Shown: piece after piece, positions 1,768-21,131 of the stretch
Position numbering within the stretch: the stretch's first letter is position 1
How the letters are laid out: every line of letters begins with the position of its first letter
Notes under the pieces: generated by a model
Seen by the model: the letters and a program-made list of their open reading frames with translations, nothing else
Told to the model about the DNA's origin: nothing
The model's database searches: none
Assembly (NCBI RefSeq): GCF_019469265.1
Contig: NZ_CP048268.1
Span: forward strand, 458,501 to 522,500
DNA from: Lactobacillus panisapium
GTDB taxonomy: Bacteria > Bacillota > Bacilli > Lactobacillales > Lactobacillaceae
Direction: 5' to 3'
Length of the DNA: 64,000 nt
Program-made: the position numbers and the translations under genes

Positions 1768-1798
1768 ATAATAGTCATTTTTGCTCAAGGTGATTAAA

Positions 1799-2035
1799 TT
1801 GAAAAAAGTAAAGGTGTCAGCAAAAGAACAGGCACGAAGAAACGGCATTTTATTATGGACAGTATTCGTTATTGTGATAAATTTTTTACAGCTGATTTGC
1901 AAAAACTGGTTAACTACGATAGTGGCCATGGTTGGCACAATTTATGCACTCTACCGAATCGTCGTTTATGATAATCCCCGAAATCGCCTTAGCCAAAAAT
2001 ATTATAATTGGCAAGGTAAAAAACTAAAGAAATAA
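1799..2035 (+). CDS. Small membrane protein after galactitol PTS, unknown function
   Basis: About 78 residues if translation starts at TTG 1799, which has AAGGTGAT correctly spaced upstream. In-frame TTG 1781 and GTG 1790 are alternatives with poorer sites. A basic N-terminus (KKVKVSAKEQARRN) is followed by two closely spaced hydrophobic segments (about residues 18-36 and 41-57) and a basic tail ending GKKLKK. That predicts a two-helix membrane hairpin with both ends inside. It lies 31 bp behind gatC and just before the terminator, so it is probably co-transcribed with the permease. I do not recognise the family. Confidence 0.6.
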   Translation: MKKVKVSAKEQARRNGILLWTVFVIVINFLQLICKNWLTTIVAMVGTIYALYRIVVYDNPRNRLSQKYYNWQGKKLKK

Positions 2036-2037
2036 TT

Positions 2038-2076
2038 TAATACCGTTAGGGAAAGTTTTCTCTAACGGTATTTTTG
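2038..2076 (+). terminator. Intrinsic terminator of galactitol PTS operon
   Basis: The hairpin pairs TACCGTTAGRGA with its complement TCTCTAACGGTA around a short loop and is followed by a T-run at 2071. It closes the gatBC/small-protein unit. Confidence 0.85.
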
Positions 2077-2145
2077 CTTCAAAACGGGAAGGTAAAGTGC
2101 TCGACTTAAGGAGAAAAATATTTTTGAAAAGGTTTACAAATCCAA

Positions 2146-2174
2146 TTGTATTTAACCGCTTTCTTTGCTACACT
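2146..2174 (+). promoter_or_regulatory. Promoter of gntR-agaS
   Basis: TTGTAT (2146-2151), 17-bp spacer, TACACT (2169-2174), with an extended -10 TG at 2166-2167. The inverted pair TACAA/TTGTA (2135-2151) overlaps the -35 region. Confidence 0.6.
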
Positions 2175-2177
2175 CGA

Positions 2178-2193
2178 AGTGGTATCAACCAGT
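2178..2193 (+). promoter_or_regulatory. dre-like operator for a NagR/AgaR-type GntR repressor
   Basis: AGTGGTATCAACCAGT differs little from the dre palindrome recognised by NagR/DasR-type HutC-subfamily regulators (AGTGGTCTAGACCACT as I recall it). It sits at the expected transcription start, between the promoter and the regulator's own start codon, as expected of an autoregulatory operator. Confidence 0.6.
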
Positions 2194-2212
2194 TAAAAAG
2201 GAGGGGATGTCA

Positions 2213-2932
2213 ATGCAAAAACCACTTTATCAGCGGGTTATTCTCGACTTAGAAAAGCTAATCAAAAAGATGAAACCCAATGAAAAGTTACCAAGCGAAC
2301 GGCAACTATTGGTTAAATATGGTGTCAGTCGCAATACTATTAGGTTAGCATTACAAAACTTAGAAGAGCGAGGGCTAATTTACCGACTTCATGGTAAAGG
2401 AACATTTGTCTCGAGCATTTATTTGGATCGACCAAATATTGGTGGAATTTACTCTTTTTCTGAAGAAGTAATGCGGGAAGGCCAAAAGGCAACTACGCAA
2501 AATCAAAGCTTGGAACTAGTAACGCCGACAAGAAAGATTGCCGAGCAACTTAACCTAGCTGAAAATGAGCAAGCCTATAAATTGGTCCGTTTGCGTCTTG
2601 CCAATAATGAGCCGCGAATGTTTAGTACAACTTATTTGCCAGAAAAATTGTTTCCTAAGTTAAAAATTTCCGATCTGAAGAACAAGACATTATACGGGGT
2701 ACTTAAAGAAAAATATAATCAATTATCCGTGATCGCGTTTGAAGATGTGCAAGCGGTCAGCCTAAGTAAACCCGAAAGTGAATATTTAGCGGAAAAAGAA
2801 GGTTCACCTAGTCTGAAAATTTACCGCAAAACAATTAATGATAAAAATATTCCGATTGAGTTTACTATTTCTTTAGCACGTGGTGATAAGTTTATTTATC
2901 GGTCAAGACAATATAACGATTTAGCAAAATAA
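2213..2932 (+). CDS. GntR/HutC-family regulator, probable amino-sugar repressor
   Basis: 240 residues from ATG 2213, chosen because AAAAGGAGGG ends 8 bp upstream; the in-frame TTG 2165 and ATG 2207 are poorly placed. Residues 1-70 form a GntR winged helix (KLPSERQLLVKYGVSRNTIR), and the rest is a UTRA effector domain. The domain pairing places it in the HutC subfamily, whose members bind phosphorylated sugars. It precedes agaS by 9 bp, and a dre-like palindrome overlaps its own start region. A role as repressor of galactosamine genes is inferred from this context. Confidence 0.85.
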   Translation: MQKPLYQRVILDLEKLIKKMKPNEKLPSERQLLVKYGVSRNTIRLALQNLEERGLIYRLHGKGTFVSSIYLDRPNIGGIYSFSEEVMREGQKATTQNQSLELVTPTRKIAEQLNLAENEQAYKLVRLRLANNEPRMFSTTYLPEKLFPKLKISDLKNKTLYGVLKEKYNQLSVIAFEDVQAVSLSKPESEYLAEKEGSPSLKIYRKTINDKNIPIEFTISLARGDKFIYRSRQYNDLAK

Positions 2933-2941
2933 GGAGAAAAA

Positions 2942-4105
2942 ATGTTTACGAAAACAGATGCAGAACTTGAAAAAATAGGTGCTAAGATTACTACCCGTGA
3001 GATTCAGCAACAGCCTGAATTATGGCAACAAACCTGGTCGATTTACCAAGATAATAAAGCCAAAATTGAGGAATTTCTCGCCAAGGTTAACAGTGAGTGT
3101 GGCAAGGTACGGGTGATTTTCACTGGTGCAGGAACCAGTGCGTACGTTGGCAACACCATCATGCCGTATTTACAAAAGCATGGTGATCGCAGCAAATATG
3201 ACTTTACAGCAATTGACACTACTAAAATTGTCTCCACCCCCGAAGATTACCTTGAGCCGGAAACGCCGACCATTTTAGTTTCCTTTGCCCGTAGTGGCAA
3301 TTCGCCAGAGTCGGTTGCGACAGTTGAATTAGCCAAAAAGCTGGTAAAAAATTTATACCAAATTGCTATTACTTGTGCGCCTGAAGGTCATTTAGCCCAA
3401 GACTTACAAGGCGATGCAACGGGGCTAGTTTTATTAATGCCGGAAAAATCGCTTGACCAAGGCTTTGCAATGACGGGATCATTTTCATGTATGACCTTAG
3501 CAGCATTATTAGTCTTTGATACTCTTGGTGACCAAGAAAAAGAACAGATTATTAAGCAAATTGCGACAATGGGCAAGAGCGTGATTGCCAGAGAAGACGA
3601 GATTGCAGCGCTTGTCAAAACAGATTTTGACAGAATTACTTATATTGGCAGTGGCTGCTTAGGTGGACTTGCTGAAGAAACGCGGTTAAAGATTTTAGAA
3701 TTAACTGCGGGTGAAGTGGCAGCATTATTTGACACGTCGATGGGCTTACGTCACGGTCCTAAGTCGTTTTTGGATAAAAAGACGATTGTTTTCGACTTTG
3801 TTTCCAACAATTCGTACACCAGACAATATGATTTGGATATTCTCAATGAAATTAGGGATGATCAAATCGTGCCGCTGGTAATGGCAGTTGGGCAAGAAAA
3901 AGCGGGGCAAGATTTTGCTGGTCAAACATTTACTTTTGCGGAAAAGAAACTTTTGCCAGATGTTTATTTAGCTCTGCCAGATGTCATGTTTGGTCAGACC
4001 ATTGCATTATTAACTTCAATTAAAGTAAATAACAAACCAGATACGCCATCGCCAACCGGAACCGTTAACCGGGTCGTTAAAGGTGTCACTATTCACAAGT
4101 TTTAG
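2942..4105 (+). CDS. agaS: AgaS-type SIS-domain galactosamine-6-phosphate deaminase/isomerase
   Basis: 387-residue cytosolic protein with two SIS sugar-phosphate binding folds. The N-terminal TTREIQQQPELW, the phosphate-binding loop FTGAGTSAYVG, and the second-domain signatures SFARSGNSPES and GLRHGPKSF match AgaS. AgaS proteins convert galactosamine-6-phosphate to tagatose-6-phosphate and ammonia. The length is typical. It is 9 bp behind the GntR gene, so they form one operon. Its product would need a tagatose-6-phosphate kinase and LacD (13,023), which are nearby. A start at ATG 2942 follows AAGGAG. Confidence 0.9.
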   Translation: MFTKTDAELEKIGAKITTREIQQQPELWQQTWSIYQDNKAKIEEFLAKVNSECGKVRVIFTGAGTSAYVGNTIMPYLQKHGDRSKYDFTAIDTTKIVSTPEDYLEPETPTILVSFARSGNSPESVATVELAKKLVKNLYQIAITCAPEGHLAQDLQGDATGLVLLMPEKSLDQGFAMTGSFSCMTLAALLVFDTLGDQEKEQIIKQIATMGKSVIAREDEIAALVKTDFDRITYIGSGCLGGLAEETRLKILELTAGEVAALFDTSMGLRHGPKSFLDKKTIVFDFVSNNSYTRQYDLDILNEIRDDQIVPLVMAVGQEKAGQDFAGQTFTFAEKKLLPDVYLALPDVMFGQTIALLTSIKVNNKPDTPSPTGTVNRVVKGVTIHKF

Positions 4106-4182
4106 TGTAATTACTTTGTTTATATAAAAAAAGATTTTATAACATAACGATAAAATTATTGTCAATAATTAAAAAGTGCATG

Positions 4183-4211
4183 TTGACAAAAATTGGTTGG
4201 TACCTTACTAT
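4183..4211 (+). promoter_or_regulatory. Strong promoter of mannose-class PTS operon 1
   Basis: TTGACA (4183-4188), exactly 17 bp, TACTAT (4206-4211). The spacer contains ATTGGTTGGTACC, a possible half-site of a dre-like operator. Confidence 0.8.
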
Positions 4212-4218
4212 GTAATTG

Positions 4219-4232
4219 TGAAAGCGTTTTAA
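4219..4232 (+). promoter_or_regulatory. cre site of PTS operon 1
   Basis: TGAAAGCGTTTTAA fits the catabolite-responsive element pattern and covers the expected transcription start. Repression by CcpA (encoded at 56,388) is therefore likely. Confidence 0.75.
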
Positions 4233-4271
4233 ATAATATTTAGATTTCCTTAAAGATATGGAGGAAGACAT

Positions 4272-4760
4272 ATGAATATTGTGGGTGCAAGAGTTGATGA
4301 ACGCTTGGTTCATGGTCAAGTTGCTAATCTTTGGACACCAAAGCTGCAAGTAGAACGAATTATCGTTTTAGATGAAAAAGCAGCTAAGGATGATATCCAA
4401 AAAAGTGGCCTTAGAATGGCAACGCCAATGACGACGAGACTAAGTGTTCTACCAACAAAAATTGCTGCTGATCATTTATTAAAAAATCGTTATGGTAAGC
4501 AGAGACTATTTTTAGTTTCGAAAGAGCCAGACAACTTTTTACAACTGCTTAATGCTGGAGTTAAATTCGACTCGCTTAATCTAGGCAATATGTCGCGCAA
4601 AGAAAATACGACAGAACTGACTAAGCAAGTAAATGTTACGCCGGACGATGTTAAGATTTTTAACCAAATTGCTGATCAGGGTGTCGAGATCATCGCACAG
4701 GTAAATCCAAGTGTTGATGCAACGAATGTCATGAAACTGATTGGCGAAAAGATGAAGTAG
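4272..4760 (+). CDS. agaV: PTS mannose-class IIB, probable GalNAc/galactosamine specific
   Basis: 162-residue cytosolic phosphocarrier of the mannose/fructose/sorbose (PTS_IIB) family. The phosphohistidine motif RLVHGQV places the active His at residue 14. It transfers phosphate from the IIA at 6557 to sugar bound by IIC-IID. It is the first gene of a IIB-IIC-IID-IIA operon with its own promoter, cre and GGAGG site. Assignment to the AgaV subgroup rests on the neighbouring agaS, lacD and GH31 genes, not on a substrate-specific residue. Confidence 0.85.
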   Translation: MNIVGARVDERLVHGQVANLWTPKLQVERIIVLDEKAAKDDIQKSGLRMATPMTTRLSVLPTKIAADHLLKNRYGKQRLFLVSKEPDNFLQLLNAGVKFDSLNLGNMSRKENTTELTKQVNVTPDDVKIFNQIADQGVEIIAQVNPSVDATNVMKLIGEKMK

Positions 4761-4770
4761 GAGGAAGAAA

Positions 4771-5697
4771 ATGATAGCTTGGTGGCAAATATTACTGCTT
4801 ACTTTGTATGCAGGCTTAGAAATTCTTGATGAATTGCAAATCTATTCGTCTTTAAATACTCCTGTCGGTGCTGGCTTAATTGCTGGTCTGATTATGGGTG
4901 ATTTACCTACTGGATTATTTATCGGTGCTTCAATGCAGTTAATGGTTTTAGGTGTTGGTACTTTTGGTGGTGCTTCAAGAATTGATGCAACTACTGGTAC
5001 AGTTCTTGCAACTGCCTTTTCAACAACTGTTAAGGGCATGACTCCTCAGGCAGCTATTTCTTCTATTGCTGTTCCTGTAGCAGCAATCATGGTAGAGCTC
5101 GACGTATTAGCAAGATTTGCTAATACTTACTTCTCTCACAGAATTGATCACTTAATTGATCAAGATAAGATTAACTATAAGGCCGTTGAAAGAAATGTTC
5201 TTTATGGTGCAATTCCGTGGTCATTATCTCGTGCGATTCCCGTCTTTATTGCCTTAGCCTTTGGTCAAGGATTAGTTCAAACCATTGCCAATGCTTTAAA
5301 TGGGGAATTCTTATGGCTAGGTCAAGGCTTAACCGTCGCAGGTGCTGCGCTTCCAGCGGTTGGTTTTGCGATTTTACTTCGCTACTTACCAGTTAAGAAA
5401 CATGTTGCTTACTTAATTCTTGGCTTTACCATTACCACTTTGTTCTCAGTCCTATTCACTGGTCTGCAGACTTTGGGTACTGGTCTAGCTGCTGTTAATA
5501 AAGGCTTTACTTCCATCTTCAATGGTTTACCAATGTTAGCAATTGCAATGTTGGGCTTAGCTTTTGCAATCTTACATTACAAGAACATTTCGATTAGCAG
5601 ACCTGCACCAACAAAGAGCGCTGAAAGTGCAAGCAATGAAGAAGCAAGTTCAAGTGTTAATAATGATGAAGGAGAGATCACTGATGACGAACTCTAA
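4771..5697 (+). CDS. agaW: PTS mannose-class IIC permease
   Basis: 308-residue polytopic membrane protein of the EIIC sorbose-specific type, which pairs with IID to form the translocation channel. Hydrophobic segments run over residues about 5-270, and the early glycine-rich run LIAGLIMGDLPTGLFIGASMQ is typical. The protein is longer than most family members because of a hydrophilic Ser/Glu/Asn/Asp tail of about 35 residues (SKSAESAS...ITDDEL). The last 14 bp overlap the IID start, which points to translational coupling. Confidence 0.88.
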   Translation: MIAWWQILLLTLYAGLEILDELQIYSSLNTPVGAGLIAGLIMGDLPTGLFIGASMQLMVLGVGTFGGASRIDATTGTVLATAFSTTVKGMTPQAAISSIAVPVAAIMVELDVLARFANTYFSHRIDHLIDQDKINYKAVERNVLYGAIPWSLSRAIPVFIALAFGQGLVQTIANALNGEFLWLGQGLTVAGAALPAVGFAILLRYLPVKKHVAYLILGFTITTLFSVLFTGLQTLGTGLAAVNKGFTSIFNGLPMLAIAMLGLAFAILHYKNISISRPAPTKSAESASNEEASSSVNNDEGEITDDEL

Positions 5698-6502
5698 ACC
5701 TAAATATAAATTAACTGATGCGGACTTTAAACAGATTAACCGGAGATCATTATTCGGTTTCCAGTTAGGCTGGAACTATGAACGAATGCAGAATAGTGGC
5801 TATCTGTACACGATTTTGCCGCAATTGAGAAAAATCTATGGCGATGATACTCCAGAATTGAAAGAAATGATGAAAACTCATATGCAGTTCTTCAACACTT
5901 CTAACTTCTTCAATACCATTATTACTGGTATCGACCTTGCGGTTGAGGAAAATGAGGGAATTGCTGGCAAAGATACTGTTGAAAGTATGAAAGTCGGCTT
6001 GATGGGTTCATTTGCCGCCATCGGTGACTCAATCTTTGCTTCATTAATTCCAACAATTTTCGGTGCTTTAGCTGCATCAATGGCTCATGAAGGTAATCCA
6101 ATTGGTGTGATTATCTGGGTCGCAGCCTGCTTGTTAATCTGTGTTTTCCGTTGGAAACAATTACATTTTGCCTATGATAAAGGTGTTTCATTGGTAACTG
6201 ATATGCGGGATCGGTTAAACGCATTAACTGATTCGGCTACGGTCATGGGTGTCTTCATGGTTGGTGCATTAGTAGCAACTATGGTTAACATTAAATTTGC
6301 CTGGACACCACAAATCGGCAAGGTTTCAATGAACATTCAAAATAACCTTGATATGATTATTCCAAAACTGCTCCCAGCTGCAGTAGTTGGTTTTGTCTAC
6401 TGGTTATTAGGCAAGAAAGGTATGACCTCAACTAAGGCAATTTTAATTGTTTTAGTTCTGTGCATTATCTTAGGCGGTACCGGAATTATTGCTAAAGTCT
6501 AG
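5684..6502 (+). CDS. agaE: PTS mannose-class IID component
   Basis: 272 residues from ATG 5684, which follows AAGGAGA by 8 bp inside the 3' end of the IIC gene; further upstream in-frame starts would lie wholly inside IIC. The hallmark FQLGWNYERMQNSGYLYT and the loop SLMGSFAAIGDS (here VGLMGSFAAIGDS) identify the EIID-AGA/mannose family. Amphipathic N-terminal part, then membrane segments near residues 120-160, 185-205 and 225-270. It works with IIC as a heteromeric permease. Confidence 0.88.
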   Translation: MTNSKPKYKLTDADFKQINRRSLFGFQLGWNYERMQNSGYLYTILPQLRKIYGDDTPELKEMMKTHMQFFNTSNFFNTIITGIDLAVEENEGIAGKDTVESMKVGLMGSFAAIGDSIFASLIPTIFGALAASMAHEGNPIGVIIWVAACLLICVFRWKQLHFAYDKGVSLVTDMRDRLNALTDSATVMGVFMVGALVATMVNIKFAWTPQIGKVSMNIQNNLDMIIPKLLPAAVVGFVYWLLGKKGMTSTKAILIVLVLCIILGGTGIIAKV

Positions 6503-6556
6503 CAAGCTGCTTTAACACAGTAATGTCATAAAATGATAGTAAGAGAAAGAATTCAT

Positions 6557-6958
6557 ATGGCTGAAAAAGAATTAATACTAATTAGTCACGGAAAAATGGC
6601 AGAGGGCGTAAAAGCCAGTGCCGAATTAATAATGGGCGAACAAGAACATGTCCATACAGTTTGCCTACTTCCATCCGAAGGACCAGAGGATTTCAAGCAG
6701 AAATTTGAGAATGAAATAGCAGGAATGGATGTTGCTGATATTACCGTTTTCGCTGATTTGATGGGTGGAACTCCTGCAAATGTTGTTAGTAGAATGATTA
6801 TGGGTGGACAAAAGATTCATTTGATTTCAGGAATGAATCTTCCACTTGTAATTGAATGGTTAAATAGTCAAATGAACGGGGTAGAATCTGACTATATCAC
6901 TGCCGGGAAGGCAGGAATGGTCGATGTTACCGAAATGTTGGCTAAAATGAATAAATAA
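6557..6958 (+). CDS. agaF: PTS mannose-class IIA component
   Basis: 133 residues from ATG 6557; the upstream in-frame ATG 6533 lacks a ribosome-binding site. The IIA-Man motif LILISHGKMAEG places the phosphohistidine at residue 11, and the second family signature FADLMGGTPANV is present. It receives phosphate from HPr and passes it to the IIB at 4272. It is the last gene of operon 1, 54 bp after IID, followed by a strong terminator. IIA in last position separates this operon from the two IIA-first operons further on. Confidence 0.85.
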   Translation: MAEKELILISHGKMAEGVKASAELIMGEQEHVHTVCLLPSEGPEDFKQKFENEIAGMDVADITVFADLMGGTPANVVSRMIMGGQKIHLISGMNLPLVIEWLNSQMNGVESDYITAGKAGMVDVTEMLAKMNK

Positions 6959-6969
6959 AATTACCAAAG

Positions 6970-7013
6970 TAAAAAAGCCTAATTCGGTGGATCATCGGAG
7001 TTAGGCTTTTTAC
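6970..7013 (+). terminator. Intrinsic terminator of PTS operon 1
   Basis: AAAAAGCCTAA pairs with TTAGGCTTTTT across a loop of about 18 bases. Confidence 0.85.
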
Positions 7014-7046
7014 TATTCGATTATTAAACTATGTATGATTAACTAA

Positions 7047-7090
7047 ATAAAATAGGATTAGCCTAGGGGGCCAATCCTATTTTTTATTTT
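7047..7090 (-). terminator. Terminator of the glycoside-hydrolase-like gene
   Basis: The stem AAATAGGATT/AATCCTATTT has an inner GCC/GGC pair and A/T flanks on both sides, so it can stop transcription both ways. It overlaps the last codons of the minus-strand gene at 7084. Confidence 0.75.
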
Positions 7091-9108
7091 GAAAAGATAA
7101 GTTGAATTAACTCAAGCGGTTTAAGTTCTTCGTTAATAGTTACGGAACTTCCCGTTTGCCGAAGATTGATTTGCTTGCGCGTTACTGTCGAACCATTTTT
7201 TCTAATTAAAGTGGCCTGATTATGAAGTAGCTTTTTACCAGTGTGCCAGTTAATTTCCCGGTATGAATCAGACGAAAAATTAGCTAGCCAGGCAATTTTA
7301 CCGTCAGCTTGCAGCAATAATTTTACGTTAGGCATCTGTTCTAGGTAATCAAGGGATGTGATGCTAGTAAGCATTTGTTGCAGTAACCCTTGCTTATAAG
7401 TAGAAAATTGTGCTTCCCAGCCGTGACGTGGATCTTGGTCAACTGGCAGAACAAGTAGATGATTATCAATTACGGCCATAAAATTGCCTAAGCGCTCATC
7501 AACTGAATTATAGGCAGAAGACCAAATATTAACGTTACTTTCTGGATCGTAGGTAAGTTGCAGGTAATTACCGGTATGTTGCAGCATCGTAATGCGGGGA
7601 TTAATGACACCATCAACTTTCTTCCCATCTGCTTGCTCAAAGGACTGGTAGCCAGTACGGCACTTATGCCAAACCGCTTTTTGAATATGAAGTAAGTTTT
7701 CTAAGCCGCGGTCCAGCAATACTTGAATGCTTTCACCATCTAACAAGACAACATTGTCCTGCAGAAGTTGCGTAATTTGTTGATTATTAAAATTTCTAAG
7801 AAGCTGGCCGGCAATAGCGATAATTTGCTTTTGTAATTTAGTGTCAGCACTGACTGGCAAAATTGTTATAGCAAATCCCATGGCACCTAGTAAACTGGCC
7901 CAATTTTTTTCATGCGGCAATAATTCCGTTACATCCAAGCCACGTTTAGTTTGTAAGTTATAGCAAGAATCCTGGTCGACCAGGACCTTAATGCCACACA
8001 AGTGCTCGATAGGCAGTCTATTTTGCAATAATTGGTTAACAAAGGGCTTGGTTTCAGCCAGCATTTCTGCGTAATGCCAGCTTTGGTTAATTCCATTACC
8101 CATCATATCAAATAGGTTTAGTAAAATTCCCTGGCTACCGATTAAGGCAGCCGTAATTATTTGAAACTGACTAAAAGTCGTTGATTTTACCAGGGGTGAA
8201 TACATGTAATTTTCAAGTTCAGGATAAAGTTCAGTTTTTTCTCCTAAAAAAGCAGCTGTAATTCTCGTGTACTCTTCAAAAAAACGTCCATATTGATTTG
8301 GCGCAATTTCATTATAGGCTGGCAAGTGGGGACGGGCAATTTGGGGATGGTCCTTTCCGGCTTGTGCCAAAAATAGGTTATTCCAATCACGTCCTTCTAA
8401 TGCATGCCAATCAGGATAAGATGTCATCTGCGCTAAGTCTGTTTCTGGGCTTACTTGGTGAACAGCTTGTTCGAGTAAGTGTTCTGTTTCGATCATTTCA
8501 GTTCGTGCTTGATCAAGGTAGATTTTCCGTTCCATGGTCGGTGGACCTGGCTGCAGCATTTTTTTAACGAATTCACTTCTAGCTTCTTTTCGGCCAAGCT
8601 TTTTCTCATAAAGGTGCATGTGGTAGTCACAAAAGCACATTAACCCAAGTGGTGTGTGATTATAATGACGAAAATCATCTTCTAACCATAATCGTTTAGG
8701 ATGAATACTTGCATATTGCGCGTATATCTCTGTTAGGTATTTTCGCCATGTTGGATCAGCTGGGCAGGCCATATCGTTAGCCTTTTGGCCATTAAGATCA
8801 ACAAACGTGTTAAAGCCAATTTGCGGATTAACATGATAGCCGCGATCTGAATGCATGATTGTTGTCCAAGGATTTAAGCTGGTGGTAACACCAATTGCAG
8901 CTAATTTTGCCTGCAGCAGCTTAATTGCATCAAGCCAAACCTGAGTTTCTCTTTTAGTCAAATGGCTATGATTGAGCTCTTCACCATTAATGAAAAAAGC
9001 AACATCATCAATCTGTCCTTTTTTTACAAAGTCTAATAATTGCTGGTCTTTTTCTGCTGTATTGGTAAGAGGATCAAGCATATAGCGCAAAGTATAAATA
9101 AATTTCAT
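7084..9108 (-). CDS. Cytosolic glycoside-hydrolase-like protein of unrecognised family
   Basis: 674 residues, no signal peptide and no membrane segment, so it should act on imported (possibly phosphorylated) sugars. The first 350 residues look like a TIM-barrel glycosidase: acidic motif LWLEDDFRHYNH at 140-151, then a Cys/His-rich CFCDYHMHLY. Residues about 375-500 resemble the glutamine-amidotransferase-like domain found after the barrel in GH42-type beta-galactosidases, and the C-terminus is probably a beta-sandwich. It is divergent from the secreted GH31 gene and shares its promoter region with a cre. I cannot name the family or substrate. Start ATG 9108 has only a weak GGATGG site. Confidence 0.6.
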   Translation of the reverse strand: MKFIYTLRYMLDPLTNTAEKDQQLLDFVKKGQIDDVAFFINGEELNHSHLTKRETQVWLDAIKLLQAKLAAIGVTTSLNPWTTIMHSDRGYHVNPQIGFNTFVDLNGQKANDMACPADPTWRKYLTEIYAQYASIHPKRLWLEDDFRHYNHTPLGLMCFCDYHMHLYEKKLGRKEARSEFVKKMLQPGPPTMERKIYLDQARTEMIETEHLLEQAVHQVSPETDLAQMTSYPDWHALEGRDWNNLFLAQAGKDHPQIARPHLPAYNEIAPNQYGRFFEEYTRITAAFLGEKTELYPELENYMYSPLVKSTTFSQFQIITAALIGSQGILLNLFDMMGNGINQSWHYAEMLAETKPFVNQLLQNRLPIEHLCGIKVLVDQDSCYNLQTKRGLDVTELLPHEKNWASLLGAMGFAITILPVSADTKLQKQIIAIAGQLLRNFNNQQITQLLQDNVVLLDGESIQVLLDRGLENLLHIQKAVWHKCRTGYQSFEQADGKKVDGVINPRITMLQHTGNYLQLTYDPESNVNIWSSAYNSVDERLGNFMAVIDNHLLVLPVDQDPRHGWEAQFSTYKQGLLQQMLTSITSLDYLEQMPNVKLLLQADGKIAWLANFSSDSYREINWHTGKKLLHNQATLIRKNGSTVTRKQINLRQTGSSVTINEELKPLELIQLIFSK

Positions 9109-9228
9109 GATTTCATTCCATCCACATAGTAAATATGTAATATATTATTTTTTATAATCAATAAATAAAAGTTAATATTTTTCGTTAAAGTATGTCATAA
9201 AATCTATACCTATTATATAATTATATAA

Positions 9229-9242
9229 TAAAACGCTTTCCA
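9229..9242 (-). promoter_or_regulatory. cre site upstream of the GH31 gene
   Basis: Read on the minus strand it is TGGAAAGCGTTTTA, a good cre. It lies 40 bp before the GH31 start and next to a TATAAT at 9216-9221, in the intergenic region shared with the divergent gene. Confidence 0.7.
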
Positions 9243-9281
9243 GAAATCTAGTAATTTTAATTTTTATCAAGGAGATAGCTT

Positions 9282-12200
9282 ATGCTAGGTAAAAATAATC
9301 GATTAGGTAAACAAAAGAAAGTTAGTAAATGTATTAATCGTTGGTCTATTAGACGGTTAAATGCGGGCGCAGCGTCTGTCATAATCACTACGGGTTTTAT
9401 TGGTGCTAGTGCATTATATTGCGGTGTAAAGACGGAAAATGTATTGGCTGCTACTACAGAAAACATTAGTGAAAGTAGTAATTCACAATCACAAACTGAT
9501 AAGCAGGCAATAGGAGAAAATGGCTCTGAGCAAAATCCCGCACCAAATACTGAGCAGCCGCGAGAAACAAGTAAAGGAAATGAAGTAATGCAGCAATCAA
9601 TTATTAATATAGTTAAAAAGGAAAATTATTTTGAGGTTACGTATGCAAATGGTCAAGTTGCCAGACTATATGTTTTAAGCCCCAAGATGTTCCGCTATTA
9701 TCTTGACCCAACTAAAAAATATGATGAGCCCGAGCAATCAGAAGCGGATTTGAACGCTAAAATGCTGGCCAAGGGTCAGGATGCTTATGGTAAAAAGGGT
9801 TTGAAAAAAACAACTGCAACTAAAAGTAGTAAGGGCTGGAAGCTTTCGACCGGTGCAATCGAGATTAATTTTGATCAAGCAGCTGGCACTATGAGTGTGA
9901 CTAAGGGGAAGCGCACAATTTTACAAGAGGCTAAGCCAATCGAAATTACGGATAAGTCAAGTACACAGACTTTAAAGGATCCTGCCGGCAGTCATTATTT
10001 TGGTGGTGGTACGCAAAATGGCCGTTTTAATCTAACTGGTGACAATATTAAAATCGAAAATACAAACAATTGGGTTGATCAAGGTGTAGCATCACCTAAC
10101 CCATTTTACTGGTCCTCGAATGGTTACGGCGTTTTACGTTATACCTTTAAGCCGGGACGATATGACTTTGATAGTGCAGCTGACGGTTTAGTAACGACAA
10201 CGCACGATGAAAACCGTTTTGACGCAATCTACTTTTTCGATGATTCACCGTATGATTTAATCCATGACTATCAAGAATTAACCGGCTTGCCTGCCTTGAC
10301 GCCAATCTATGGTTTTTATGAGGCCCATTTAAATGCTTATAATCGTGATTATTGGGTTGAAGTTACTCCTGATACCAACGGTGCAATCAAATATCCTGAT
10401 GGAAAATACTATAAAGAGTATCAACCAAAGGAGTTGCCAGCAGAATACAAGGATAAAGCAATTCGTGAAACGCTAAATGGTGAACATGGTGGCACGAGTT
10501 ATCAGTTCAGTGCGCGTGCAATGCTTGACCAATATTTAGATCACGACATGCCGATTGGTTGGTTTTTGCCAAACGATGGTTACGGTGCAGGGTATGGTCA
10601 AACGGATACTTTAAAGGGAAATATTGCGAACTTGCATGACTTTATTAAATACGCTAATTCCAAGGGAATTCAGGTCGGTTTATGGACTCAACAAAACCTT
10701 TCTCCTGCAGATCCGGCTAACCCTAAGCCAGATGACCGTGATTTTGAGCAAGAAATTGCTGCTGGAGTGACCGCTCTTAAGACGGACGTAGCTTGGGTCG
10801 GCAATGGCTATTCCTTTGGTCTTAACGGTACGCAAACAGCCGCCAAAATGATCAAAAAAATTAAAGGCGACAGCTTGCGCCCATTTATTGTGACAGTCGA
10901 TGGCTGGGCTGGCACCCAGAACACAGCCGCAGTTTGGACTGGTGATGAAACCGGAGGAGAATGGGAATATATTCGCTTCCAAATTCCAACCTATATTGGT
11001 GAGGGTCTGTCTGGGCAACCTAATGCAGCCTCAGATATGGACGGTATATTTGGTGGAAAAAATGCAATCATTAACACCAGAGACTATCAATGGAAAGCTT
11101 TTACCCCAATTCAATTAAATATGGATGGCTGGGGCAGCAATCCGAAGAATCCGTTTGCCTTTGATGATGCCACCACCGCAATTAATCGCGCTTATCTAAA
11201 GCAAAAATCAATGTTAATGCCTTACATTTATAGTATTGCGTCTGAAGCGACTTTTGCTGGAAAGCCAATGGTACGGGCGATGTTCCTTGATTATCCTGCC
11301 GAACCTGCCGCATACACTGATTTGGTTAAGTACCAGTATTTGTGGGGAGACAATTTCTTAATTGCCTCAATTTATCAAAATACTGCTAGTGATCAAGCCG
11401 GAAATGATATTCGCAATGGAATTTATTTACCAGACAAGAACCAGGTTTGGATTGACTACTACACCGGTAAGCAATATCAAGGAGGCCAGGTTATTAATAA
11501 TTTTGCCGCTCCAATCTGGAAACTTCCAGTCTTTGTTAAAGCAGGTGCAATTATACCGGTTGCCCCAGCGACTAATACCCCGCAAGAATATCAGTCACTA
11601 AAGAATCAGCGCCAGTTTGAAATTTATCCTAGTGGACATAGCAGTTTTACTGTGTACGAAGATGACGGCATTTCGGCCCAATATCAATCTGGTCAGCACG
11701 CCGAAACTACCGTTACCAGCAACTTACAAAATACTACTTTAACTATTAATGTTGCTAAGACGAAGGGACAATATGCTGGCTTTGAACCGAATAGGACGAC
11801 TGAATTTGCTGTGAAAACCACGCAAGAGCCAGCAACAATTAAGGTGAAAGTTGGCAATAAGAATATTTCTTTACGACAGGCACATGATCTGGCTGACTTT
11901 AATAAATCTAATAACGTTTATTTCCTTGATCAAAATTACAGCACTAACTCATACCTAGATAAGATGGCAGGTGCAGTGAAGCAAACTTTCTTAAGAATCA
12001 AGTTGGCTGCAACTGATGTAACTCGCAATTCACTTACAGTTTCAATTACCGGGTTTAACAAAGATACTGCTATTGTTAACCAGTTACCGGCTGAGAATGC
12101 AAATATTGCTCAACCAACTGCTTTAAAACAAGACAATGAGGGAACAACTGAAAATGCAATCACAGTTACTTGGAATCCTGTAGTAGACAGTACAAGTTAC

Positions 12201-12827
12201 AATTTAAAGGTAGATGGAGTTTTACATACCAATATTAAAGAAATTAAATTTACCTTACCAAATATTAAGCCAGAGTCTGCACACACATTCCAGGTTCAGG
12301 CGGTTACACCTAACGGAGCTTCCAAATGGAGCGCTATTCAAACCTTCTCAGCGAAAGAAAGTATTTTGAAAAATACCGTAAAAATAACGTCAGTTAAGAC
12401 TAGTTCCAACATTAAAGACACCAATATTTGGGAAAACGATCAGCCGGTTGAAAATCTTTTTGACCATGACTTAAGCACAATTACACATTCTAATTGGTTC
12501 TCTGATGGCAACAAACAGGCGGCTACGCCAATGACGATAACCGCACAATTAGCTGAGCCGACAGATCTTGATCGTTTTGTTTATCTTCCGCGTAATGATG
12601 GTGGAACTAATGGAATTATTACGGCAATTAAGGTTGAAGTAAGTTTAGACGGAACTAATTGGCAAGAGGCTGGTAGTGCTTCGAATTGGGCAAAAGATAG
12701 TTCAACTAAGGAAATTAAGTTTGCGCCGGGAACCAAAGCAGCTTGGATAAGATTTATTATTCCAACTGGAGGTTCAGTTAATGAGTTTGTTTCGGGAACC
12801 GAATTCTTAATCTATAAAAAAGCCTAA
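9282..12827 (+). CDS. Secreted GH31 enzyme, probable alpha-N-acetylgalactosaminidase
   Basis: 1181 residues. A YSIRK-like export signal (WSIRRLNAGAASVIITTG, residues 21-38) ends near LAA57, followed by a polar linker. The GH31 N-terminal sandwich and TIM barrel follow; probable nucleophile Asp502 in ALKTDVAWVG and acid/base Asp555 in WTGDETGGEWEYIR. After the barrel come beta domains, an FN3 module (about 947-1030) and an F5/8-type C (CBM32-like) module (1031-1181). The loop motifs differ from ordinary alpha-glucosidases and resemble my recollection of the GH31 group active on alpha-GalNAc; the surrounding galactosamine genes support that. No LPXTG sorting signal is present, so attachment to the cell is unclear. 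Confidence 0.8.
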   Translation: MLGKNNRLGKQKKVSKCINRWSIRRLNAGAASVIITTGFIGASALYCGVKTENVLAATTENISESSNSQSQTDKQAIGENGSEQNPAPNTEQPRETSKGNEVMQQSIINIVKKENYFEVTYANGQVARLYVLSPKMFRYYLDPTKKYDEPEQSEADLNAKMLAKGQDAYGKKGLKKTTATKSSKGWKLSTGAIEINFDQAAGTMSVTKGKRTILQEAKPIEITDKSSTQTLKDPAGSHYFGGGTQNGRFNLTGDNIKIENTNNWVDQGVASPNPFYWSSNGYGVLRYTFKPGRYDFDSAADGLVTTTHDENRFDAIYFFDDSPYDLIHDYQELTGLPALTPIYGFYEAHLNAYNRDYWVEVTPDTNGAIKYPDGKYYKEYQPKELPAEYKDKAIRETLNGEHGGTSYQFSARAMLDQYLDHDMPIGWFLPNDGYGAGYGQTDTLKGNIANLHDFIKYANSKGIQVGLWTQQNLSPADPANPKPDDRDFEQEIAAGVTALKTDVAWVGNGYSFGLNGTQTAAKMIKKIKGDSLRPFIVTVDGWAGTQNTAAVWTGDETGGEWEYIRFQIPTYIGEGLSGQPNAASDMDGIFGGKNAIINTRDYQWKAFTPIQLNMDGWGSNPKNPFAFDDATTAINRAYLKQKSMLMPYIYSIASEATFAGKPMVRAMFLDYPAEPAAYTDLVKYQYLWGDNFLIASIYQNTASDQAGNDIRNGIYLPDKNQVWIDYYTGKQYQGGQVINNFAAPIWKLPVFVKAGAIIPVAPATNTPQEYQSLKNQRQFEIYPSGHSSFTVYEDDGISAQYQSGQHAETTVTSNLQNTTLTINVAKTKGQYAGFEPNRTTEFAVKTTQEPATIKVKVGNKNISLRQAHDLADFNKSNNVYFLDQNYSTNSYLDKMAGAVKQTFLRIKLAATDVTRNSLTVSITGFNKDTAIVNQLPAENANIAQPTALKQDNEGTTENAITVTWNPVVDSTSYNLKVDGVLHTNIKEIKFTLPNIKPESAHTFQVQAVTPNGASKWSAIQTFSAKESILKNTVKITSVKTSSNIKDTNIWENDQPVENLFDHDLSTITHSNWFSDGNKQAATPMTITAQLAEPTDLDRFVYLPRNDGGTNGIITAIKVEVSLDGTNWQEAGSASNWAKDSSTKEIKFAPGTKAAWIRFIIPTGGSVNEFVSGTEFLIYKKA

Positions 12828-12893
12828 AATAAATGGTTAAATGTGGAAAAATAGTTTTTACCTTTAATTTTCTAATAAAGGCTGTTAGGGAGC

Positions 12894-12936
12894 TGTAAAC
12901 TTTTTCAAAATTGATCTCAAAGCTGAAAAGTTTTTC
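12894..12936 (+). promoter_or_regulatory. Dyad region between GH31 and lacD
   Basis: AACTTTTTCA (12898-12907) pairs with TGAAAAGTTTTT (12924-12935) and could be a weak terminator of the GH31 gene. The left arm TGTAAACTTTTTCA (12894-12907) matches in 11 of 14 places the reverse of a site before the pfkB gene (14,986), so it may instead be a RpiR or degenerate cre site. Confidence 0.35.
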
Positions 12937-12953
12937 GTAAATCCGACCGCTTC

Positions 12954-12982
12954 TTTAAATGCGCTTACAATGAGTATATAAT
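12954..12982 (+). promoter_or_regulatory. lacD promoter with overlapping cre
   Basis: TTTAAA (12954-12959), 17 bp, TATAAT (12977-12982). The spacer holds a cre-like element at 12956-12969 (minus strand TGTAAGCGCATTTA). Confidence 0.65.
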
Positions 12983-13022
12983 AACAGTGTGCGATTAAAG
13001 AGAATGTTAAAGGAGATTTATA

Positions 13023-14015
13023 ATGAGATCAATATCTTCCGCAGTTGCAAAACATCTGGAAAATTTGTCAACTAAAGATGGCGTAATTAGTGCGTTAGCA
13101 ATCGATCAGCGTGGTTCTTTAAAGAAAATGCTGGCTGATGCTGCTAATAAACCTGCTGATGAAACAACAATTGTTGATTTTAAAAAGGCAGTTTCAAGTG
13201 AATTAACACCTTATGCTTCGTCAATTTTGACTGATCCAGAGTATGGCTTACCGGCAACTAAAGTTCGAGACAAGAATTGTGGCTTGCTTCTTTCTTACGA
13301 AAAGACTGGTTATGATACTACTGAACCCGGCAGAATGCCAGATTTAATTGCTAATCAATCTGGGTTGCGCATTAAGAATGAAGGCGGGGATGCGATTAAA
13401 TTCTTGCTTTACTATGATCCGGATGAAGGCCAAGAAATCAATGATAAGAAGAAGGCCTTTGTAGAGCGGGTTGGCGCTGAAGCAAAAGCTAACGAATTAC
13501 CATTTTTCCTTGAGCTATTGACTTATGACAGCAAGATTGAAGATACAAAAAGTGCAGAGTTTGCCAAAGTTAAAGCTAATAAGGTTTTACAAGCAATGAA
13601 AGAATTCTCGGCGCCGCAGTATGATGTTACTGTTTTGAAAGTGGAAATTCCGTTTAATCTCAAGTTTGTCGAAGGCTTTAATGGAAATAATGAGGTGGTT
13701 TACACACAAGAACAGGCTAAAGACTTGCTTAAACAGCAATCTGATATTACTGATCTACCATTTATTTTCCTATCCGCTGGCGTAACGAGTGAAGAATTTA
13801 TTGCTGAAATCAAAATGGCCGAAGAAGCCGGAGCTGACTTTAATGGGGTCTTATGTGGACGTGCAACTTGGAAGCCTGCTATTAAGCCATTTGCCGGTGA
13901 AAGTGAAGCAGCTGGTCGCAAATGGCTATCAACTAAAGGTAAAGAAAATATTGAAAACTTAAACCAAGCGCTCAAAGGAGCAAAATCTTGGCGTGATAAA
14001 TTGACGGTTCAATAA
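13023..14015 (+). CDS. lacD: Tagatose-1,6-bisphosphate aldolase
   Basis: 330-residue class I aldolase that cleaves tagatose-1,6-bisphosphate to dihydroxyacetone phosphate and glyceraldehyde-3-phosphate. The N-terminal ALAIDQRGSLKKML and the Schiff-base region DVTVLKVEIPFN (Lys206) identify LacD, and the length is normal. It has its own promoter, a cre in the spacer, a clear AAAGGAG, and a strong terminator, so it is monocistronic. It lies between the galactosamine-type genes and the RpiR/PfkB/PTS group and can serve both, since each could deliver tagatose phosphates. Confidence 0.93.
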   Translation: MRSISSAVAKHLENLSTKDGVISALAIDQRGSLKKMLADAANKPADETTIVDFKKAVSSELTPYASSILTDPEYGLPATKVRDKNCGLLLSYEKTGYDTTEPGRMPDLIANQSGLRIKNEGGDAIKFLLYYDPDEGQEINDKKKAFVERVGAEAKANELPFFLELLTYDSKIEDTKSAEFAKVKANKVLQAMKEFSAPQYDVTVLKVEIPFNLKFVEGFNGNNEVVYTQEQAKDLLKQQSDITDLPFIFLSAGVTSEEFIAEIKMAEEAGADFNGVLCGRATWKPAIKPFAGESEAAGRKWLSTKGKENIENLNQALKGAKSWRDKLTVQ

Positions 14016-14042
14016 CTACAAATAAGTTAATAAAATTATTAC

Positions 14043-14085
14043 AAAAGCACGATTCTGTGATTAATAACAGAATCGTGCTTTTGCT
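14043..14085 (+). terminator. lacD terminator
   Basis: Near-perfect 15-bp stem AAAGCACGATTCTGT / ACAGAATCGTGCTTT followed by a T-rich stretch. Confidence 0.88.
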
Positions 14086-14133
14086 TGTGCACTTTTTTAA
14101 TTGTGACAAGAATTTACTGATAAAATTTAACAA

Positions 14134-14172
14134 ACCGGCTGACTAGTAGAAAAACTAGCAGCCTTTTTTAGT
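14134..14172 (-). terminator. Terminator at the end of rpiR
   Basis: GGCTGACTAGT pairs with ACTAGCAGCC. The T-run is clear on the plus strand and weaker on the minus strand, so it probably works in both directions. It touches the rpiR stop codon. Confidence 0.65.
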
Positions 14173-14929
14173 TAGCCTTGAAAAAGTTGGTTCTGACTGA
14201 ATACGCATCGCAAAAGATCCTCGTCATAATCTGCAATGGCAAGCGTGAGCGTACTTCATATTCGGGAAAGTAATTTGTCTTTGACTTATAGCCAATGAAG
14301 GACAGCGTTGAAGAAGTTAAAATGCTGCCAGCAGGATTAGTGGTAAACGTCAAAATAGGAATATCATTTTTTCGCAATGTTTTGGCAGCTTTGACCAATT
14401 CATCTGTTTCGCCATTCAGTGTAATAAAAATAGCGAGAGCATCCCGGTTTAATTTATTTGCAATTGTCATGATGATATTGGGATCAGAATGGAACTCACA
14501 GTATTTACCAGTTAGCTGCAATTTAACCATCATTTCATGTGCAATCGATTCTGACAGTCCCCGTGCAAACAAATAAACGATTTTAGCCTGCTTAGTCATG
14601 GAGATGCTATCTTCGATCGTACTGTAATTGAGATTGTGCAAGGTATTATTCATTTCAATCTCGTTTTTAGTAATAACGCTCCTAATCTTGTCATCTGCTT
14701 CATTTAAAACTGCGAAAGTAGAATTAGATTTACTTTTGAGTTTTAATGCTTCGCGATAAGAAGTATAGCCACTGTAACCCATCTTTTGCATGGTGCGAAC
14801 AATTGTGGCAGTAGAAACATTAGCAAATTGGCTTAACTTAACGATTGACATTTTAGCAATTTTATCCGGATTATTTTCGACAATATTCCAAAGATGCAAT
14901 TCAGCGGAACTTAGTTCTTTTGTCGGCAT
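14168..14929 (-). CDS. RpiR-family transcriptional regulator
   Basis: 253 residues: N-terminal RpiR helix-turn-helix (LSQFANVSTATIVRTMQKMGYSGYTSYR, about 27-55, split here for description) and a C-terminal SIS sugar-phosphate sensing domain (IVYLFARGLSESIAHEM). It is divergent from the pfkB-PTS operon and probably controls it, and perhaps lacD, in response to a sugar phosphate. A cre (14,968) and a candidate operator (14,986) lie in the shared 120-bp region. RpiR proteins can activate or repress; the poor -35 of the pfkB promoter would fit activation. Confidence 0.88.
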   Translation of the reverse strand: MPTKELSSAELHLWNIVENNPDKIAKMSIVKLSQFANVSTATIVRTMQKMGYSGYTSYREALKLKSKSNSTFAVLNEADDKIRSVITKNEIEMNNTLHNLNYSTIEDSISMTKQAKIVYLFARGLSESIAHEMMVKLQLTGKYCEFHSDPNIIMTIANKLNRDALAIFITLNGETDELVKAAKTLRKNDIPILTFTTNPAGSILTSSTLSFIGYKSKTNYFPEYEVRSRLPLQIMTRIFCDAYSVRTNFFKAN

Positions 14930-14967
14930 GATTATACCTCTTTTGTAAATAGTTTTCTGTTATTTTT

Positions 14968-14981
14968 AGTAAACGCTATCA
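14968..14981 (-). promoter_or_regulatory. cre between rpiR and pfkB
   Basis: Minus strand TGATAGCGTTTACT matches the cre pattern. It lies in the divergent promoter region. Confidence 0.6.
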
Positions 14982-14985
14982 TTTA

Positions 14986-15017
14986 TGAAAATCGTTACAC
15001 TTTATTCTCTTTATAAT
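14986..15017 (+). promoter_or_regulatory. pfkB-PTS promoter and candidate RpiR site
   Basis: TATAAT at 15012-15017 has no convincing -35 at 17 bp. TGAAAATCGTTACA (14986-14999) occupies that position and shares 11 of 14 bases with the motif before lacD, so it may be an activator site. It also resembles a cre with the CG shifted by one base. Confidence 0.4.
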
Positions 15018-15049
15018 AGTACAAAAGGCAAGGAAAAGGAGAAAAAGCA

Positions 15050-15979
15050 TTGATTTATACAATAACTTTAAATCCAGCAATCGATTTAGTAATTGTGACG
15101 AAAAAATTAGAACCAAAAGTTGTTAATCGAACGGAAAGTTTTGAATTGCAGCCTAACGGCAAGGGTGTCAATGTATCATTTATTTTAAAAAAGCTTGGCA
15201 TCAAAAGTGTTGCGACCGGTATTGGTGGCGGGTTCACGCTTGACTACGTTACTAATGGATTGGCGGCAAAAGGAATCAAAACTAAATTTTTGAAGGTGAA
15301 TGGTTTAACTAGAGTGAATGTTTTCACTAATGTCATTGACCAGAATACTGAATATAAAGAGGTTAATCCTGGACCAGAAATTAGTAAAGAAGTGCAGCAG
15401 CAATTTTTGGCTTATTTTGAGGAAACACTTACTGAAGAAGATTTAGTGGTAATTTCTGGTAGCTTTGCTCAGGGGATCGAACCAAGTTATTTGGTGCAAA
15501 TTGCCCGGATTGTCGCTGCCAAAAAAGCGAAGCTGGTAATTGATAGCAGCTATTTGGCGGTAGTTGATACCCTACCGTATCATCCGTTTTTACTTAAGCC
15601 TAACGAAACCGAACTGGCCAGTTTTTACCATTATAAAGGTGAAATGACTAGTGCCAAAACGGTTGAATTAGCGCAGAAATTGGTGCAGGCGGGCTGTCAA
15701 AATGTCCTAGTTTCGCTTGGTGCAAGAGGAGCAGCATTAATTAATGAAAAAGAAGTTTTATTTGCCAATGCTCCTAAAATCAAAGTGGTCAATTCAGCGT
15801 GTGCTGGTGACACGATGTTGGGTACTTTTCTTGCCTTCATAGAAAAAGGTCAGTCAATTAGTGAAGCACTAAAAGTAGCAGTAGCTGCCGGCAGTGATAC
15901 GGCAAGCAGAACGGGCTTGACGGATTTTAAATTAGATAAATTATTGCCGCAAATTACGGTTAAAGAAGGGATGAAATAA
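15050..15979 (+). CDS. PfkB-family 1-phosphofructokinase / tagatose-phosphate kinase
   Basis: 309-residue cytosolic sugar-phosphate kinase. TLNPAID at the N-terminus, the PNGKGVNVS substrate loop (residues 35-43) and the C-terminal NSACAGDT with catalytic Asp254 place it in the FruK/LacC group; Cys replaces the usual Gly in GAGD. The start is TTG 15050 behind AAAAGGAG. The next gene, 1 bp away, is a fructose-type PTS, which suggests FruK. The lacD neighbour makes tagatose-1-phosphate or tagatose-6-phosphate equally possible substrates. Confidence 0.85.
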   Translation: MIYTITLNPAIDLVIVTKKLEPKVVNRTESFELQPNGKGVNVSFILKKLGIKSVATGIGGGFTLDYVTNGLAAKGIKTKFLKVNGLTRVNVFTNVIDQNTEYKEVNPGPEISKEVQQQFLAYFEETLTEEDLVVISGSFAQGIEPSYLVQIARIVAAKKAKLVIDSSYLAVVDTLPYHPFLLKPNETELASFYHYKGEMTSAKTVELAQKLVQAGCQNVLVSLGARGAALINEKEVLFANAPKIKVVNSACAGDTMLGTFLAFIEKGQSISEALKVAVAAGSDTASRTGLTDFKLDKLLPQITVKEGMK

Positions 15980-20988: not shown

Positions 20989-20998
20989 TGTGTCAAAA
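20961..20998 (+). promoter_or_regulatory. Candidate upstream activating sequence for the LevR-type regulator
   Basis: TTTTGACAC (20961-20969) and GTGTCAAAA (20990-20998) form a perfect 9-bp dyad with a 20-bp spacer. It straddles the regulator's stop codon, about 130 bp upstream of the expected sigma-54 transcription start, the usual place for an enhancer of this class. Confidence 0.6.
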
Positions 20999-21025
20999 AT
21001 GGCGCAATTAAAATAAGCAAAATAA

Positions 21026-21070
21026 CGCCCAATCATGATTATGGAGGCAATCATGGTTGGGTCTTTTTTT
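21026..21070 (+). terminator. Terminator of the LevR-type gene
   Basis: CCCAATCATGATT pairs with AATCATGGTTGGG, then TCTTTTTTT. It isolates the regulator from the operon that follows. Confidence 0.88.
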
Positions 21071-21082
21071 ATCTGACAGATC

Positions 21083-21099: not shown

Positions 21100-21131
21100 A
21101 TTAAATAAATGAAAGTGGGGGTGAGAAGTAG

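Follow-up and report, generated by a model that had tools for sequence, protein, structure and literature searches.

A putative N-acetylgalactosamine locus of Lactobacillus panisapium with a GH31_18-like enzyme and a GH42-like protein that may replace GnbG

Genes of the locus

The window, that is, the whole stretch of 64,000 nucleotides analysed here, comes from Lactobacillus panisapium (GCF_019469265.1, NZ_CP048268.1, positions 458,501-522,500; G000:C1:458501-522500 of a one-contig genome of 2.19 Mb), and near its start lies a group of genes that probably serves the catabolism of N-acetylgalactosamine (GalNAc) and its glycans. The closest relatives by locus are Lactobacillus kullabergensis, L. 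laiwuensis, L. kimbladii, L. melliventris, L. apis, L. huangpiensis, and L. bombicola, which we take to be bee gut species. A gene for a GntR/UTRA transcriptional regulator (2213..2932, + strand; Pfam GntR 63.3 bits and UTRA 107.8 bits), whose ATG at 2213 was picked from the sequence, is followed on the same strand by one for an AgaS-family SIS protein (2942..4105), a proposed galactosamine-6-phosphate isomerising deaminase that scored 432.7 bits with TIGR02815, below the cut-off of 529.2. The four subunits of a phosphotransferase system (PTS) of the mannose/sorbose class are encoded downstream, also on the + strand: IIB (4272..4760; PF03830, 148.7 bits), IIC (4771..5697; PF03609, 203.9 bits), IID (5684..6502; PF03613, 294.2 bits), and IIA (6533..6958; PF03610, 78.1 bits). 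None of the four reached its NCBIfam cut-off, and the substrate of the PTS is therefore not named by that collection. On the - strand lies the gene of a GH42-like protein of 674 residues (7084..9108; GH, glycoside hydrolase family), here called MYST, which we propose to be a (phospho-)beta-galactosidase. It diverges from a gene for a GH31 protein of 1181 residues (9282..12827, + strand), a predicted alpha-N-acetylgalactosaminidase of GH31_18-like type. A LacD-type tagatose-1,6-bisphosphate aldolase (13023..14015, + strand) completes the group; it reached 495 bits with NF009065 (cut-off 458) and 404.5 bits with TIGR01232, below that model's cut-off of 432.2.

The first-pass annotation had named GntR, AgaS, the mannose-class PTS, a signal-bearing GH31 enzyme, and LacD, and open reading frames together with Pfam and NCBIfam models bear out each of these genes at its place. 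Its reading of the region as a GalNAc locus holds at the sequence level but is incomplete, since it omitted MYST, which ties the locus to a disaccharide of galactose (Gal) and GalNAc as much as to free GalNAc.

MYST and its exchange with GH35

MYST matched no Pfam model even at E 10 and no NCBIfam model at E 0.001, which rules out its membership of any family in these two collections. Against PDB sequences, the single protein found nothing to E 1 and a profile gave one chance match (E 0.22). MYST is thus set apart from Pfam, NCBIfam, and PDB sequences, the newer beta-galactosidase families of CAZy (GH147, GH154, GH165, GH173, and later ones) lying outside the comparison. No signal peptide is visible on the protein, and we found no paper describing it in the open-licence literature, which is not searchable by sequence. 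An AlphaFold model of good quality (predicted local distance difference test score, pLDDT, 88.1; predicted template modelling score, pTM, 0.90) was compared with known structures by Foldseek. Beta-galactosidases led the result, with a GH164 enzyme and a similarly built fucosidase within the top 20; the top rows had E values of 1e-18 to 2e-16, template modelling (TM) scores of about 0.6, and identities of 9-12%. Some of these rows we take to be GH42 enzymes, and others are GH42 by title.

We aligned 60 MYST proteins, namely that of the window, those of 55 collection loci, and those of two plasmid records and two further genomes. E297, E299, D144, D145, C115, C158, C160, and H163 are invariant in all 60, and at position 143 there are 58 proteins with Glu and two with Asp. 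In the model, strands 139-143 and 297-299 were counted as barrel strands 4 and 7, and enzymes of clan GH-A carry the acid/base on strand 4 and the nucleophile on strand 7. E143/D144/D145 and E297/E299 are accordingly placed as candidate catalytic residues of the predicted fold. An alignment of hidden Markov models (HMMs) for the 60 MYST proteins and 13 GH42 proteins was collinear and weak (probability 9%, P 0.0037); in it, the metal-binding Cys cluster of GH42 (HCP...CYCDNC) falls on C115/C158/C160/H163 and the Glu of the GH42 motif MExTPS on E299. MYST lacks the Asn-Glu pair that includes the acid/base in GH42; its own strand at that place reads W-L-E-D-D-F. MYST therefore shares with GH42 beta-galactosidases the predicted three-domain fold, the Cys cluster, and the position of the nucleophile Glu, but differs from them in having no match to PF02449 (E up to 10), one Cys changed to His, and an identity of about 11%. 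By sequence and model, it looks like a far relative of GH42 and not a member of that family.

The distribution of MYST follows that of AgaS. MYST was found in 40 of 350 Lactobacillaceae genomes and AgaS (E 1e-80 or better) in 58, and AgaS was matched in 39 of the 40 genomes with MYST. The exception (G070) has a MYST gene fragmented with stops and an agaS remnant of 117 residues, and IIB, IIC, and IID are missing between its IIA and nagA. A second decayed case (G192) combines a MYST gene with eight stops, a IIB of 105 residues, and a split IID. Among the 19 genomes of the genus sample, both genes were matched in nine (MYST being broken in G192) and neither in nine, G070 being the remaining genome. 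At genus level, AgaS occurs in 12 of 40 genera, and the seven genera that have MYST are all among these 12 (P 4e-5). In 38 of the 55 collection loci, a PTS or agaS gene lies within up to 9 kb of MYST; the usual order in Pediococcus is IIA-MYST-IIB-IIC-IID-GntR-AgaS-NagA, and that in Companilactobacillus is GntR-IIB-IIC-IID-IIA-MYST-AgaS-NagA. Five MYST copies of the Lactobacillus johnsonii group show one stop in the genome search, which we read as the frame end because three of them (L033-L035) are open frames of 672 to 681 residues. Outside Lactobacillaceae the gene is rare (two of 397 other genomes of the phylum sample, and three plasmid records). A clostridial homologue (Clostridiaceae, 40% identity; L130:4779-11124) stands after araD-, araB-, and araA-like genes, with a GH3-like gene further on (names by eye).

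Further evidence on the role of MYST comes from loci of the type known as gnb. GnbG of L. casei belongs to GH35, and no GH35 protein was found in the genome of the window by a search that was positive in four of 14 control genomes. We compared 60 loci, consisting of 59 agaS matches and the remnant of G070, and in 46 of them the IIC is at least 50% identical to that of the window. Thirty-three of these 46 loci belong to MYST genomes, MYST itself lying within the stretch in 21 of them, and no GH35 was found in the stretch of any of the 33. As for the other 13, 12 carry GH35 and one (G119) has neither; the protein from G119 that was submitted to Pfam is a PTS-type regulator. In the last 14 of the 60 loci, the IIC is distant or was not found in the stretch. 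Pfam confirmed all nine GH35 proteins that were submitted to it (313 to 412 bits); the other three of the 12 are assigned by BLAST likeness. The 12 loci carry a mannose-class PTS, an AgaS-type deaminase, and a NagA-type deacetylase together. On the IIC tree, the MYST label has to change at least twice, and both of these changes are dictated by branches with good support. A genome-wide search for GH35 in 12 of the 40 MYST genomes exceeded the cut-off in two (G335 and G303), away from agaS, and both GH35 controls were positive.

The known counterpart is the gnb operon of L. casei BL23, which serves galacto-N-biose and lacto-N-biose through a PTS with GnbG, GnbF, and GnbE. Both systems have the mannose-class PTS, the AgaS-type deaminase, and the NagA-type deacetylase, whereas the locus in the window has no GH35, carries the GH42-like MYST, and includes a GH31 alpha-N-acetylgalactosaminidase candidate in addition. 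On the grounds of sequence and model, MYST is most likely a cytosolic (phospho-)beta-galactosidase for disaccharides of the Gal-beta-1,3-GalNAc type and a stand-in for GnbG.

The GH31 enzyme, the GalNAc route, and regulation

Pfam recognised in the GH31 protein the N-terminal, barrel, and C-terminal GH31 domains, DUF5110, and an F5/8 type C module, together with a YSIRK-type signal (20.2 bits, cut-off 20); an fn3 module scored 24.3 bits, slightly below the cut-off of 25. Residues 104-1018 align with the Enterococcus faecalis GH31 alpha-N-acetylgalactosaminidase (PDB 6m76, 7f7q, and 7f7r) at 1006 bits, while other solved GH31 enzymes in the PDB gave at most 120 bits, which rules out an alpha-glucosidase or xylosidase. 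The GH31_18-like label is taken from this bit-score gap, which stands in for a subfamily tree, and from passages on the content of the subfamily (PMC13096917). The catalytic motifs, located by alignment, are KTDVAW (D502, presumably the nucleophile) and WTGDETGG (D555, presumably the acid/base), and their spacing of 53 residues agrees with that of the E. faecalis chain. Of 48 aligned rows, among which one gene is sometimes represented twice, 44 share this Asp pair; the four rows without it are the genome's own second GH31, L074, L075, and an unrelated GH31 of L092. The window protein differs from the E. faecalis enzyme in its terminal F5/8C module, after which the protein ends, and in that no LPXTG anchor was seen. 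By these comparisons, it appears closest to the characterised GH31 alpha-N-acetylgalactosaminidases, and the non-glucosidase active site attributed to it at first pass is borne out by its grouping with the E. faecalis enzyme and by both catalytic Asp residues being kept.

GH31 enzymes tested elsewhere differ on mucin and were inactive on the Tn antigen, so that both are at most possible natural substrates of the window protein. According to passages from one study, its own GH31_18 enzyme was active on p-nitrophenyl-alpha-GalNAc and inactive on Tn antigen or mucin (PMC13096917), and passages from another describe BT3169-GH31 of Bacteroides thetaiotaomicron as acting on desialylated mucin and not on Tn antigen (PMC11992087). 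The literature passages on royal-jelly glycans do not settle whether these are the substrate, and among open-licence papers we found none linking GH31_18 with Lactobacillus. The endo-alpha-N-acetylgalactosaminidase family GH101 had no match in the genome, but it had none in any control genome either.

In nine loci of close relatives (L077, L078, L079, L081, L082, L083, L084, L086, and L108), a GH31 protein at least 55% identical to that of the window lies between MYST and lacD. Eight of the nine hold a short form without a visible signal peptide, L083 being the one uncounted; the GH31 start codon is ambiguous in L083 and L084. L081 and L082 also have the signal-bearing long form, in tandem with the short one. 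Signal-bearing and signal-less forms of one GH31 type thus alternate at the same position (L077-L086, L108). No GH31 was found between MYST and lacD in L. bombicola (L087) or in strains ESL0246 (L088), ESL0679 (L080), and ESL0701 (L085). The short forms in relatives speak against reading the locus purely as one for the secreted release of Tn-type GalNAc, which the first-pass annotation envisaged.

The same genome encodes a second GH31_18-like protein of 997 residues (G000:C1:2013866-2016859; L132:7867-10860) without an obvious signal peptide, divergent from nagA. None of 18 Lactobacillus genomes (17 relatives, L162-L178, and this one) has both catalytic Asp residues in intact motifs in this protein, and its gene adjoins nagA or gntR-agaS in 14 of the 18. 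From these sequences it looks like a conserved dead enzyme, perhaps a sugar sensor.

A GalNAc-phosphate deacetylase was missing from the window, and the genome proved to have a single NagA over the cut-off outside it (C1:2012575-2013603; 277 bits, cut-off 226). With this NagA, and with GH31 grouping away from alpha-glucosidases and xylosidases, neither of the genomic findings that would have counted against the GalNAc reading applies. By sequence likeness the genome has a gnb-type PTS, AgaS, and NagA, the last away from the window. The GalNAc pathways (aga) of Streptococcus pneumoniae and Escherichia coli also use AgaS, a PTS, and the tagatose-phosphate route. The conversion to tagatose phosphates and triose phosphates proposed at first pass fits AgaS, LacD, and this NagA but lacks a firm tagatose-6-phosphate kinase: the lacC model found five frames in the genome, of which three scored 131 to 235 bits and none passed the cut-off of 410. 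Next to the locus, a PfkB-family kinase (15050..15979, + strand) scored 324.4 bits with TIGR03828 (1-phosphofructokinase; cut-off 292) and 133.5 bits with lacC (cut-off 409.6), and as a tagatose-6-phosphate kinase it is possible but unproven.

For regulation, we identified a candidate GntR motif, TGGTTGRTACC, with seven matches in the window at no more than one mismatch against 1.14 expected, a number that none of 100 shuffles reached. An exact match, TGGTTGATACC, precedes the regulator gene (2181..2191, - strand), and motif search placed TGGTTGGTACC in the PTS promoter region (4194..4204, + strand). In close relatives, forms of the motif occur before IIB in 11 of 13 loci and before gntR in 10 of 13; L115 and L102 have a further one before MYST, in the interval that separates it from lacD. 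The divergent MYST/GH31 promoter region (9109..9281) reads a - strand site, CTGGAAAGCGTTTT, that in our view resembles a catabolite-responsive element (cre). The sequence RGGTATAGAT in this promoter was rejected as a shared operator (six matches against 5.1 expected). In the johnsonii group (L033-L035, L089, and L090), MYST lies away from agaS and is preceded by a cre-like site and a palindrome near CTTAATATAATAAG, which replace the GntR motif. Terminator-like hairpins were found 3' of MYST (7049..7083, - strand; 15-pair stem) and between lacD and the rpiR-type gene (14041-14084; 18 pairs). Positions 1700-15200 hold 19 terminator-like sites against 10.6 expected and show no excess of promoter-like sites (34 against 37.5).

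The rpiR-type neighbour (14168..14929, - strand) encodes an RpiR-family regulator with PF01418 and a SIS domain. At the other end, gatB and gatC occupy positions 8-1767 and are preceded, outside the window, by lacA-, lacB-, and gatA-like genes (named by eye). Further on, positions 18214-31786 hold a long regulator frame and two more groups of genes in which mannose-class PTS subunits are accompanied by SIS-domain proteins of about 331-335 residues; these groups, named by eye, presumably resemble fructosamine deglycase loci.

Proposed pathway, alternatives, and meaning

We consider it probable, with appreciable doubt, that this is a GalNAc-centred catabolic locus in which GH31 releases GalNAc, a gnb-type PTS imports it, and MYST splits Gal-beta-1,3-GalNAc in GnbG's place; each catalytic and transport step is one that we infer from the observed sequences, predicted fold, co-occurrence, and locus swap. 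The secreted GH31 enzyme would take alpha-linked GalNAc off glycoproteins, and the mannose-class PTS would import and phosphorylate GalNAc and, most likely, Gal-beta-1,3-GalNAc (galacto-N-biose). MYST, as a cytosolic, distantly GH42-like retaining glycosidase, would cleave the imported disaccharide and so fill the role of the GH35 phospho-beta-galactosidase GnbG of L. casei. NagA, encoded elsewhere, AgaS, the PfkB-type kinase, and LacD would then lead to triose phosphates.

The products of MYST would be either Gal and GalNAc-6-phosphate or Gal-6-phosphate and GalNAc. The product of GnbG is Gal-6-phosphate according to the passages of a review (PMC10629584). For MYST, we favour free Gal and GalNAc-6-phosphate on two grounds: the substrates of nagA and agaS are 6-phosphates, and galactose genes adjoin MYST, galK and galT being linked to it in five relatives. 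In L. pasteurii (L099), GntR, AgaS, NagA, galK, galT, IIB, IIC, IID, IIA, and MYST follow one another on one strand, and in four Lacticaseibacillus loci (L094, L095, L097, and L098) MYST diverges from galR-galK-galE-galT (gal genes named by eye). Near both starts in three of these four loci, and once in the stretch for L098, there is a TTTTACTAAAA-like repeat, a putative operator. Four Pediococcus loci (L110, L112, L113, and L114) have an adjoining galM-like gene and a gene for a SASA-type esterase (PF03629 in the single member scanned).

Several observations weigh against this reading of MYST. G335 and G303 carry MYST plus an unlinked GH35, and in G027, where MYST is intact, the match to agaS is confined to residues 165-387 and lies in a frame of 226 residues. 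Seventeen of the 55 collection loci have no PTS and no agaS in the stretch examined, some stretches being shorter, and the genomes are kin, so that genome-level Fisher values overstate their independence. The HMM match to GH42 is weak and lacks the Asn-Glu pair, and the promoter region between MYST and GH31 in the window gave no match to the candidate GntR motif. Clostridial and Paenibacillus homologues sit among other sugar genes, so the wider MYST family need not be galactosidases.

It is unlikely, in our estimate, that free GalNAc and the Tn-type GalNAc set free by GH31 are all that the locus handles, with MYST acting on some other imported glycoside. The assignment of GH31 as an alpha-N-acetylgalactosaminidase would suit such a function, as would the fact that in several genera MYST lies at a distance from agaS and in the johnsonii group stands apart from it. 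Yet of the 46 loci with a gnb-type PTS, 45 carry GH35 themselves or belong to a genome with MYST. By contrast, neither gene was found at four agaS loci whose PTS is distant (IIC 25-28% identical; G021, G069, G080, and G089); their genomes have no MYST, and the search for GH35 in them covered the locus only. A fifth such locus (G196b) belongs to a MYST genome that has MYST in its other operon.

Whether a GH42 enzyme rather than MYST does this work in some relatives, above all in the L. johnsonii species group, bears on a published question, and we give this a similarly low chance. According to passages from two papers, the human-gut lactobacilli L. gasseri and L. johnsonii can utilise both lacto-N-biose and galacto-N-biose although they possess no GnbG homologue, so that other glycosidases must act (PMC7366668; PMC6109692). 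L. johnsonii ATCC 33200 (G257; L090) has a MYST 68% identical to that of the window, and its agaS, nagA, and PTS genes, with no GH35 at the agaS locus, lie 100 kb away. The presence of these three genes conflicts with a statement on L. gasseri and L. johnsonii in the passages of one of these papers (PMC6109692), which is a further point against our proposal. A role for GH42 draws on two Lactobacillus genomes (G037 and G070) with GH42 over the cut-off and on a weak GH35-model match in a 688-residue frame of G257, as G037 shows at its GH42; against it, the window genome has neither GH42 (threshold E 1e-60) nor GH35, and G070, in which MYST and the PTS operon have decayed jointly, has kept its GH42.

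GH42 also includes activities on alpha-L-arabinopyranosides and other plant beta-galactosides, and the arabinose-like neighbours of the Clostridiaceae homologue would fit such a substrate (pollen, for instance), but the tie of MYST to agaS and nagA in Lactobacillaceae and its exchange with GH35 make this quite improbable compared with a Gal-HexNAc substrate (HexNAc, N-acetylhexosamine).

Returning to MYST as a stand-in for GnbG, a broader claim would be that it founds a new GH42-like family of clan GH-A, a cytosolic phospho-beta-galactosidase that Lactobacillaceae have repeatedly exchanged with GnbG and that supplies the activity missing in L. johnsonii; we hold this tentatively, as somewhat short of an even chance. 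Galacto-N-biose is the core-1 unit of mucin, and lacto-N-biose is a core of human milk sugars. The question of the route in L. johnsonii and L. gasseri becomes testable through one conserved gene that has an operon as its partner and that was lost along with it in two natural instances. If the proposal is true, MYST would add a beta-galactosidase-like scaffold outside the families compared; the locus also shows a gut symbiont of the bee type to have the gene set for GalNAc glycans.

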